64,000 nucleotides of DNA from Gemmobacter aquarius (GTDB lineage: Bacteria > Pseudomonadota > Alphaproteobacteria > Rhodobacterales > Rhodobacteraceae). How positions within the stretch are numbered: position 1 is the stretch's first letter; every line of letters starts with the position of its first letter. A program made the position numbers and the translations under genes. Positions 9,022 through 16,419 of this stretch are shown here, one piece after another. The DNA lies in assembly GCF_003060865.1 (NCBI RefSeq), contig NZ_CP028918.1, positions 3,150,001 through 3,214,000 of the forward strand. The letters are read 5' to 3'. Below the pieces are notes generated by a model. It did not search any database. It had not been told where the DNA came from and saw only the letters and a list, made by a program, of their open reading frames with translations.

Positions 9022-9826
9022 CGCGCCCTCCCAGAACGGCCGCGATCATGTCGACCCCTTCGAATACCACATCCTCGAGCGAGGCAGCCGTGGTCGGCAC
9101 GGTGATGTACAAAAGCAGCAAGGTCGCAACCATCGTGACCGGAAAGCCAAAGGAAAACAGGTTCAGCGACGGCGCAGAGCGCGTGACGATCCCGACCGCG
9201 ATGTTCAAAAGCAGCAGGCAGGCCACCACCGGCAGCATCGTGGCCATGCCCAGCGCGAACATCCTGCTTCCTGCTGTCAGCCCCGCTGCGATGATGCGGG
9301 CGAAATCGACAGGCGCACCGGGCGGCACCGCCTGATAGCTTTCCAGCACCACGCGGATCGCGGCCAGATGGCCATCACTGCCCAGAAAGACCATCAACAT
9401 GAAAAGCCCGAAGATCTGCGCCACCACCGGCGTCTGCCCTCCGGCGGCAGGGTCGAACTGCGCGGCAAAGCCAAGCCCCGCCGTCGCTGCGATCCGGTCC
9501 CCCGCCAAGGCCGCCGCCCCGAACAGGATCGTCAGCACCAGCCCCGCGACCAGCCCCAGCATCAGCTCGGCAAAGACCAGCCGCAGCGCGGCCAGCCCCG
9601 CAAGGGCAGCCGGTTCGGGCAGCACCACGCCGCCCTCGATCCCGCCCGCCACCACCGGCAGCGCCAGAACCGCAATCGCCATCACCCGCACCTGCGCCGG
9701 CACGAACCGCCCGCCGAACCCCGGCGAGGCCATGACGAAAGCCCCGATCCGCAGCATGGCGAACAGGTATTGCGTCAGCCACCCCGTCACCGCGCCAAGA
9801 TCGAGCCCCGGAAGCATCGCCTCCAT
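9014..9826 (-). CDS. fliR: Flagellar export gate protein FliR
   Basis: Integral membrane part of the FliPQR export channel. The protein has 270 aa with about six hydrophobic helices. The FliR-typical patterns FVMASPGFGGRFVPAQVR, FAAQFDPAAGGQTPVVAQIF and LNIAVGIVTRSAPSLNLFS are clear. The length is normal for the family. Its start codon overlaps the end of fliQ and its stop overlaps flhB, so the genes are translationally coupled. Confidence 0.95.
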   Translation of the reverse strand: MEAMLPGLDLGAVTGWLTQYLFAMLRIGAFVMASPGFGGRFVPAQVRVMAIAVLALPVVAGGIEGGVVLPEPAALAGLAALRLVFAELMLGLVAGLVLTILFGAAALAGDRIAATAGLGFAAQFDPAAGGQTPVVAQIFGLFMLMVFLGSDGHLAAIRVVLESYQAVPPGAPVDFARIIAAGLTAGSRMFALGMATMLPVVACLLLLNIAVGIVTRSAPSLNLFSFGFPVTMVATLLLLYITVPTTAASLEDVVFEGVDMIAAVLGGRDG

Positions 9827-10092
9827 CAGCGGATCGCCGCGATGGTTTCGAAGACGTAGTGGAAATAATCCGTCATCCGCGTCAGCATGAAGCCCGACGC
9901 CAGCGCAAGCACCCCCATGCTGATCGCCAGCTTGGGCACAAAGGACAGCGTCTGCTCGTTGATCGATGTCGCCGCCTGCAACACGCCGATCACCAGACCG
10001 ACCACCAGCGCCACGCCCAGAACCGGCCCCGCGACGACCAGGATGTTCCAGTAAGCGATCTGCAAATTCTCGATATTGCTGTCGAAATCCAT
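9826..10092 (-). CDS. fliQ: Flagellar export gate protein FliQ (in frame with fliP)
   Basis: FliQ is a two-helix hairpin protein of the export channel. From ATG 10092 the product is 88 aa, the usual size, and carries the hallmark VLQAATSINEQTLSFVPKLA. The ATG lies inside a reading frame that is open from fliP with no stop between, so the sequence as given would make a FliP-FliQ fusion. The purine-rich GGGGGATAGG just upstream could serve as its ribosome site. If one C were added to the run at 10101-10105, fliP would end at TAG 10097-10099 and fliQ would be a separate gene 4 bases later. Confidence 0.85.
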   Translation of the reverse strand: MDFDSNIENLQIAYWNILVVAGPVLGVALVVGLVIGVLQAATSINEQTLSFVPKLAISMGVLALASGFMLTRMTDYFHYVFETIAAIR

Positions 10093-10830
10093 GATCCTAT
10101 CCCCCAGACCATAGGTCGCCGCCAGCGACCCGACCGTCAAAGCCCAACCATCGACCAGCACGAACAACAGCAGTTTCAGCGGCAGGGACACCAGCATCGG
10201 CGACAGCATCATCATGCCAAGCGCCATCAGGATCGACGCGACCACCATGTCGATCACGAGAAACGGCAGATAGATCAGGAACCCGATCTGGAACGCGGTC
10301 TTCAACTCCGATGTCATATAGGCGGGCAGCAGCACCGAAAGCGGAACCGAGTCGTTGTCGGTATAGGGCGCATCCCCCGCCAGCCGCTGGAACATCAAAA
10401 GGTCGTTCTGGCGCGTGTTCTCGATCAGGAAGCCCTTGATGATATGGCTTGCCGTGTCCATCGCGGGCTGCGCCTCCATCTGCCCGTCGAGATAGGGCGA
10501 AAGCGACTGGTCATAGATCGCGGTAAAGGTCGGCTGCATGATGAAAAAGGTCAGGAACAGCGCCAGCGCCACCAGAACCTGGTTGGGCGGGGTTTGCTGC
10601 GTGCCCAGCGCCTGCCGCAGGATCGACAGCACGATGATGATCCGCGTGAAAGCCGTCATCCCCAGCAACAGGGACGGAAGGATCGTCAGCGCCGACATCA
10701 GCGCCACGATCTGCAACGACAGCGAATAGGTCGTCCCCTCGGGCCCTTGTGTCAGGTTCAGCGCAGGCAGACCCTGGGCATGGGCGGCAAGGGGCAGCAG
10801 GATGAACAGCGGAACCAGCAGGCGTTTCAT
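9826..10830 (-). CDS. fliP: Flagellar export gate protein FliP, reading through into FliQ
   Basis: FliP forms the export channel with FliQ and FliR. The frame encodes 334 aa, about 90 more than usual. Residues 1-18 are a signal peptide (ends AAHA); the FliP core follows with TRIIIVLSILRQALGTQQTPPNQV, FLIENTRQND and LSPMLVSLPLKLLLFVLVDGW. FliP normally ends just after this motif; here the frame continues GLGDRIM into a complete FliQ. Either this is a real fusion or a one-base loss in the C5 run at 10101-10105 removed the FliP stop. I favour the latter, because adding one C restores FliP ending ...TYGLGG. The start overlaps the fliO stop as ATGA. Confidence 0.88.
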   Translation of the reverse strand: MKRLLVPLFILLPLAAHAQGLPALNLTQGPEGTTYSLSLQIVALMSALTILPSLLLGMTAFTRIIIVLSILRQALGTQQTPPNQVLVALALFLTFFIMQPTFTAIYDQSLSPYLDGQMEAQPAMDTASHIIKGFLIENTRQNDLLMFQRLAGDAPYTDNDSVPLSVLLPAYMTSELKTAFQIGFLIYLPFLVIDMVVASILMALGMMMLSPMLVSLPLKLLLFVLVDGWALTVGSLAATYGLGDRIMDFDSNIENLQIAYWNILVVAGPVLGVALVVGLVIGVLQAATSINEQTLSFVPKLAISMGVLALASGFMLTRMTDYFHYVFETIAAIR

Positions 10831-14687: not shown

Positions 14688-15098
14688 CTAACGTTTGCGC
14701 GGCGGCATCGCACCATCGCGCAGGGCCTGCTTTGCCTCGGCCTCGCCGCGCCGCGCCTCGCGGGCCTTGTCGGCCAAAAGCTGCAAGCGGTGCTCCTCTC
14801 GCGCCAGCTTCGCCTGCGCCTCGGCCACGGCCAGTGCCAGAGCCGACTCACGGTCGCGCTGCTTGTCGATCTCGGCCAATATCTGCCCGACCATGCCGCG
14901 CTCGGCCCGCAGGGTCGCCATGCTTTGCACCGCAGGCGCCGCCCCGCGCTTTTCGGCCAGCACCGCCGCCAGCCGTTCGGCCACCGCCCCCGCCTGCGCC
15001 TTTTGCATCAGCACTTCACGCAAGCCGCCCAGCGTTTCCGCGACCCGCGCCTTTTCCTTCAGCGCCATCAAAGCCAGCGTCTTGGACCGCTCGGTCAC
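14688..15098 (-). CDS. fliJ: Flagellar export chaperone/stalk protein FliJ
   Basis: FliJ inserts into the FliI ATPase hexamer like the gamma subunit of F1 and links it to FlhA. The protein has 136 aa and is almost entirely charged, Ala/Glu/Arg/Lys-rich helix, as expected for a coiled coil (LAREEHRLQLLADKAREARR). It starts with GTG 15098, overlapping the TGA that ends fliI in the corrected frame (15095-15097). That overlap argues that the normal fliI frame is the biologically selected one. Sequence conservation in FliJ is low, so size, coiled coil and position carry the call. Confidence 0.85.
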   Translation of the reverse strand: MTERSKTLALMALKEKARVAETLGGLREVLMQKAQAGAVAERLAAVLAEKRGAAPAVQSMATLRAERGMVGQILAEIDKQRDRESALALAVAEAQAKLAREEHRLQLLADKAREARRGEAEAKQALRDGAMPPRKR

Positions 15099-16419
15099 GC
15101 CACACCCGCCAGCGCCAGCAACTCGGCCCGACTGTCATCGAAAGCCGAAGCCTCGTGCGCGCCCTGCCGGATGAACGCCTCGATCGCGGGCCAAAGTCGT
15201 ATCGCCTCGTCGAGGTCTGCATCCTGACCGGGCATATAGCCCCCATCAGCATCAGGTCGCGGTTGTCCATATAAAGCGAGATCATCCGCCGCAGCTTCTG
15301 CGCCGCCGCCCGATGCTCCTTGTCCGTGATATCACCCATCACACGGCTGGTGGATTGCGGCAGATCGACCGCCGGATAGATCCCCATCTGCGTCTGCCGC
15401 CGCGACAGAACCATATGCCCGTCGAGGATCGCCCGCGCCGTATCGACCACCGGATCGTTCGTCGTGTCGTCCCCGTCCGCAAGCACCGTGTAGATCGCGG
15501 TGATCGCTCCCTCGCCGGGCAATCCCGGCCCCGTCCGTTCGATCAGTGTAGGGATCAGCGACACCACGCTTGGCGGATAGCCCTTGGCCGTCGGCTGCTC
15601 GCCCAAGGCAAGGCCGATCTCGCGCTGGGCATGGGCCACCCGCGTCAGACTGTCCATGATCAGCAAGACCTGCTTGCCCTCGGCGCGGAAGGCTTCGGCA
15701 ATCGCCGTCGCCCGCCGCGCCGCCCGCAGGCGCAGCAGAGGCGAACGGTCGGCAGGCACGGCCACCATGCAGATGCGCTTGGCGGCTTCGCCCGTCATCA
15801 CCGACCGCACGAAAGCGCCGACTTCCCGCGCCCTCTCGCCGATCAGCCCGACCACGATCACATCGGCACTTGTGAACCGCGCCATCATCTCCATGAGCAC
15901 CGATTTTCCGACGCCCGACCCCGCGATGATCCCGATCCGCTGCCCCTGCCCGATGGTCAGCGCAGCGTTCAAGATCCGCACGCCCACATCCAGCGGTTTG
16001 TCGACCGGAGTCCGCGCAAGCGGGTTCATCACCTTGCCCGCAAGCGGCCAGACCTTGTCACACCGCGGCGCGGGCAGCCCGTCGAGCGGATGCCCCTCGG
16101 CATCGATCACGCGGCCCAGTAGGGCCTCGCCCACCTCGGCCATCTGCCCGCCGCCGATCACCCGCACCCGCGCTCCCGCGATGACAGCAGCGCCGGGCTG
16201 GTTCAGAAAGAGCATCACGTTGCCGCGCGCAAAGCCGATCACCTCGCCCTGCACCGCATCGCCCGTCTCGGTCGCGATTTCGCACATCGTGCCGGGGCTG
16301 GCGGGAAAGCCGGTCGCCTCCATGATCAGCCCGTCATAGCGCAGCACCCGCCCCTCGATGCGCGGGGCGGCCACCGCCGCCCGCGTCACATCGGCAGCGA
16401 TCCGGGCAAGCAAGGTCAT
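15095..16419 (-). CDS. fliI: Flagellar export ATPase FliI, with apparent -1 frameshift near its C-terminus
   Basis: Cytoplasmic ATPase of the flagellar type III export system. Walker A AGSGVGKS, GERAREVGAF, Walker B VLLIMDSLTR and the catalytic-domain pattern VDLPQSTSRVMGDIT are intact. After NRDLMLMGA (near 15244) the frame departs from the family and would run to 15016 across fliJ as an arginine-rich tail. Adding one base to the C5 run at 15240-15244 restores a normal ending (GYMPGQDADLDEAIRLWP, FIRQGAHEASAFDDSR, LLALAGVA) that stops at 15095-15097, overlapping the fliJ start. The corrected protein has 441 aa. Either a sequence error or a true mutation or slippage site. The start overlaps the fliH stop. 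Confidence 0.9.

Follow-up and report, generated by a model that had tools for sequence, protein, structure and literature searches.

A joint FliP-FliQ reading frame in the Gemmobacter aquarius assembly is probably the product of a one-base homopolymer loss

The flagellar export gate has been solved as a FliP5Q4R1 complex, with five FliQ subunits in some complexes, according to excerpts of PMC7064499. The locus described here most closely resembles the arrangement of separate fliP and fliQ genes (NCBIfam families TIGR01103 and TIGR01402, respectively), with which it shares gene order, strand, the place of the FliQ ATG and near-full-length domains, but as assembled it displays no stop codon between the two. 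A natural fusion of two export-gate proteins in one chain, FliR-FlhB, is described for Clostridium in the same excerpts, although it involves other subunits, and a FliP-FliQ frame occurs in none of the relatives examined here. A change in run length within fliP also characterises the phase-variable fliP of Helicobacter pylori, for which available sections of the review PMC3930126 describe a truncated protein, whereas here the frame continues into FliQ. Finally, homopolymer indels that shift reading frames are described for long-read assemblies in excerpts of PMC8011154 and PMC12007338. The likeness lies in frame-breaking losses of single bases at G/C runs, but the outcome at this locus is a fusion rather than a truncation.

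Domain organisation of the joint frame

The window, a stretch of 64,000 nucleotides, comprises bases 3150001-3214000 of contig C1 in a genome of 4.2 Mb and four contigs. As the preliminary description had claimed, the list of open reading frames (ORFs) together with NCBIfam and Pfam searches revealed a single 334-residue frame that carries FliP and then FliQ (Table 1). The FliP match extends over residues 44-238 (258.1 bits against a cut-off of 217.45; model positions 1-195 of 197) and the FliQ match over residues 247-332 (99.2 bits against a cut-off of 88.9; model positions 1-86 of 88), both families being recognised above the curated score over nearly the entire model. Pfam places PF00813 at residues 44-236 and PF01313 at residues 256-323. 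Because both domains are close to full length and follow the usual fliP-fliQ order, the joint frame is more than a chance ORF. The further sequence details given in that description were also found in place: a run of five C on the plus strand, thus five G on the minus strand, lies at the 3′ end of fliP; a CTA at 10097-10099, which reads TAG on the minus strand, is out of frame in the assembled sequence; and a CAT at 10090-10092, ATG on the minus strand, stands where FliQ begins in relatives. A second fliP (G000:C1:3664295-3664960) and a second fliQ (3679932-3680144), not adjacent to each other, are located about half a megabase away and look like part of a second flagellar gene set.

Table 1. 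Features of the joint frame, fliI and four further break sites. Coordinates refer to the window unless contig G000:C1 is indicated.
Feature	Position	Strand	Basis
fliP-fliQ joint frame, 334 aa	9826..10830	-	ORF list; NCBIfam, Pfam
fliP part, residues 1-243	10102..10830	-	TIGR01103, PF00813; end point of FliP in relatives
fliQ part, residue 247 (start ATG in relatives) to the stop	9826..10092	-	TIGR01402; FliQ starts in relatives
Five-G run (five C on plus strand) at fliP 3′ end; six G in nearest relatives	10101..10105	-	Sequence and relatives
fliI as assembled, frame-broken near 15229-15244 at a five-C run	15016..16419	-	Pfam, alignments
hemE break site	G000:C1 3031258		
aroC break site	G000:C1 3533246		
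ccoN break site	G000:C1 3047130		
COQ9-family gene break site	G000:C1 3070736		

The fliP-fliQ junction in relatives and in protein databases

Loci from a search of the genome itself, a search of 40 relatives, a scan of named genomes and a family search were pooled, giving 120 loci. One lacked a FliP match and 15 lacked an adjacent FliQ match, leaving 104 adjacent pairs. A stop codon separates fliP from fliQ in 103 of the 104, the locus in the window being the only exception; the 103 separated loci are not all independent genomes, as some apparently represent the same record twice (e.g. L004 and L033). Thus, none of the 103 other adjacent pairs lacks the stop, and no related genome among them keeps a fusion. 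The preliminary description had raised the possibility that near relatives hold separate genes divided by a TAG; the separation was confirmed, while the stop itself varies between TAG, TGA and TAA. In the nearest relatives six G precede the FliP stop, against five in the window. Among the 29 separated loci with a FliP identity of 74% or higher, 20 have six G as the longest run near the stop; four have five, another four have four, and one has two. At L004 and L005 (genomes G008 and G010) the FliQ ATG comes immediately after the FliP stop TAG and is in frame with it, such that readthrough would yield a fusion. The family search, at E ≤ 1e-60, returned matches in 15 of 198 genomes, comprising the window's own, six in which a single match spans FliP and FliQ and contains one stop, and eight in which only FliP matched.

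Proteins carrying both domains were sought in two protein database searches, in which the best 120 of at least 7,999 scored candidates were examined. At least three such proteins, P0009, P0011 and P0082, are present among the matches listed, the same three in both searches and each with one ENA record. The FliP part of P0011 is 98% identical to the unfused FliP P0123, which has 110 member sequences, and P0082 displays an odd stretch immediately ahead of the junction. These three, known here from protein records alone, appear sporadic and are possibly errors of a similar kind. A search aimed at the FliQ part (370 candidates) gave two matches, P0121 and P0122, for neither of which a FliP domain is listed; its sensitivity is low, as P0009, P0011 and P0082 were not returned. 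An inherited clade of FliP-FliQ fusions was rejected on these results, with at least three single-record fused proteins among the matches listed and no FliP domain listed for the two matches of the low-sensitivity FliQ-part search. Among solved structures, 15 distinct PDB sequences align to the FliP or the FliQ part and none to both, and a literature search for a FliP-FliQ fusion, which included the available sections of PMC7064499 and PMC5542437, met no report.

One-base losses across the assembly

Approximately 1.42 Mb of the genome was compared with contig C8 of G003, a genome of the same genus and the only relative used at genome scale. The alignment comprises 116 stretches that cover 417,994 bases with a mean identity of 81%. 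In 48 isolated one-base gaps this genome is the shorter, and in 35 it is G003; within the shorter sequence, 11 of the 48 against 0 of the 35 touch G/C runs at least five long (Fisher p = 0.002). Losses at other runs are therefore seen here and not in the relative, as expected of homopolymer assembly errors. Relative to the fraction of bases lying in G/C runs of at least five, a rough binomial figure for the 11 gaps is 4e-10. All 11 shift the frame of a gene, namely fliP/fliQ and ten of the twelve further genes which alignment and translation revealed to be broken by a single-base loss. The remaining two broken genes touch shorter runs, of four at 3026913, inside a gene, and of three in the COQ9-family gene.

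A codon-phase filter applied to this comparison retained 281 frame-changing indel clusters, of which 15 have the frame intact in G003 and broken here and six show the reverse. Isolated one-base losses account for 11 of the 15, ten of them inside genes; the other, at 3137247, lies just ahead of a flgB-like start and breaks no gene. The filter missed fliI and the gene at 2685076. It is also blind to what a fused frame means and scores fliP/fliQ as a frame kept here, and this locus is one of the six reverse cases, the other five lying at gene starts or between genes on reading of the translations. Three other measures did not tell the genomes apart: a protein-level survey found 13 breaks here and 10 in G003, with frame extensions upstream of genes producing false breaks in both directions; a local amino-acid test gave 30 of 48 against 19 of 35; and a strict first filter found two breaks here and six in relatives, two of those six being fliP/fliQ itself.

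Runs of six G or C are not depleted overall, with 36.4 per 100 kb here and, for stretches from three relatives, 35.0, 46.7 and 41.7, and 36 aligned runs outside the window are six long in both genomes. A wholesale collapse of such runs is excluded by these counts; since six-runs are not depleted and are often kept when aligned, any error would affect only a minority of them. In the flagellar region at window positions 1-24000, the aligned part contains a single G/C run at least six long, against 12 at the corresponding places of G003; one-base losses do not account for most of these differences.

The assembled fliI lacks one base at 15242 relative to all three aligned relatives; the annotated C-terminus continues out of frame into fliJ. 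Using the G003 copies, NCBIfam identified hemE, aroC, ccoN, the COQ9-family gene and fliI above a cut-off, while a hybrid histidine kinase gave its best match, TIGR02956, below the cut-off. Pfam named a TauE/SafE permease, a CheW-domain protein, a histone-deacetylase-domain protein and a MacB-like-domain protein. The broken gene at 2685076 is a 268-residue frame, and that at 3321357 matched neither NCBIfam nor Pfam. When the whole genome was searched with the G003 proteins, AroC and HemE each appeared once, split into two parts that lie in different frames. Both hemE and aroC are normally required in a free-living aerobe. Decay of this flagellar gene set is not favoured, as unrelated genes elsewhere carry the same losses.

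These losses bear on the view that the base was truly and recently deleted from the G run by slippage, perhaps reversibly, such that the flagellar set would produce a fused protein or be switched, with the second fliP and fliQ able to cover for it. An open frame with both domains near full length, the presence of those second copies and the phase variation reported for H. pylori fliP in the review sections cited above would fit such an event. Unrelated genes, single-copy hemE and aroC among them, show the same type of loss, and no other strain among the loci examined has the fusion; both observations speak against such a deletion, and we consider it highly improbable.

A thirteenth frame-broken gene is dnaX (NF006585), in which the frame changes at 3065709-3065745 beside a seven-G run, within a gap cluster of net length -4. 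Some bacteria frameshift dnaX deliberately, as a programmed event, and it is therefore weaker evidence. The break in dnaX, and the recurrence of breaks at comparable G/C runs across numerous genes, would also be compatible with transcriptional or translational slippage that tolerates run indels and makes fused and separate products side by side. Such slippage would need to operate in numerous unrelated genes, at runs down to five in length. In G003, gaps of this kind are absent from runs of at least five (0 of 35), and we know of no precedent across many genes in a free-living bacterium. It is the least credible of the explanations considered and very unlikely.

Origin and meaning of the joint frame

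Two things were observed directly: the arrangement in relatives, and an excess in this assembly of single-base losses at G/C runs. Because fliP and fliQ are separate in relatives and single bases are missing at similar runs in other genes, a sequencing error is the most likely source of the fusion. Judged from sequence comparison, a homopolymer deletion in the assembly is the best explanation, with a probability of roughly 0.94, and the FliP-FliQ fusion is probably not real in the cell. According to this explanation, fliP and fliQ would be two ordinary neighbouring genes, and the assembled sequence would be one base short in the G run at the fliP 3′ end; the missing base would place the fliP stop out of frame and so join the two frames on paper. 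The base would have been lost during sequencing or assembly yet be present in the cell. The preliminary description had left the choice between an indel error and a real fusion undecided; relatives and the losses elsewhere in the assembly favour the former, and the latter is disfavoured.

The possibility that the strain truly carries five G, and that a covalent FliP-FliQ forcing equal subunit numbers serves to build, or to switch, one of its flagellar systems, seems to us slightly more doubtful still than a recent slippage deletion. The suggestion that a fusion fixes the subunit ratio gained nothing further, the joint frame itself being the sole observation behind it. If real, the fusion would tie FliP and FliQ at 1:1 in a gate of the FliP5Q4R1 type and constrain its topology. 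With an assembly error as the preferred reading, other fused or broken genes from this assembly need to be compared with relatives before they are interpreted.
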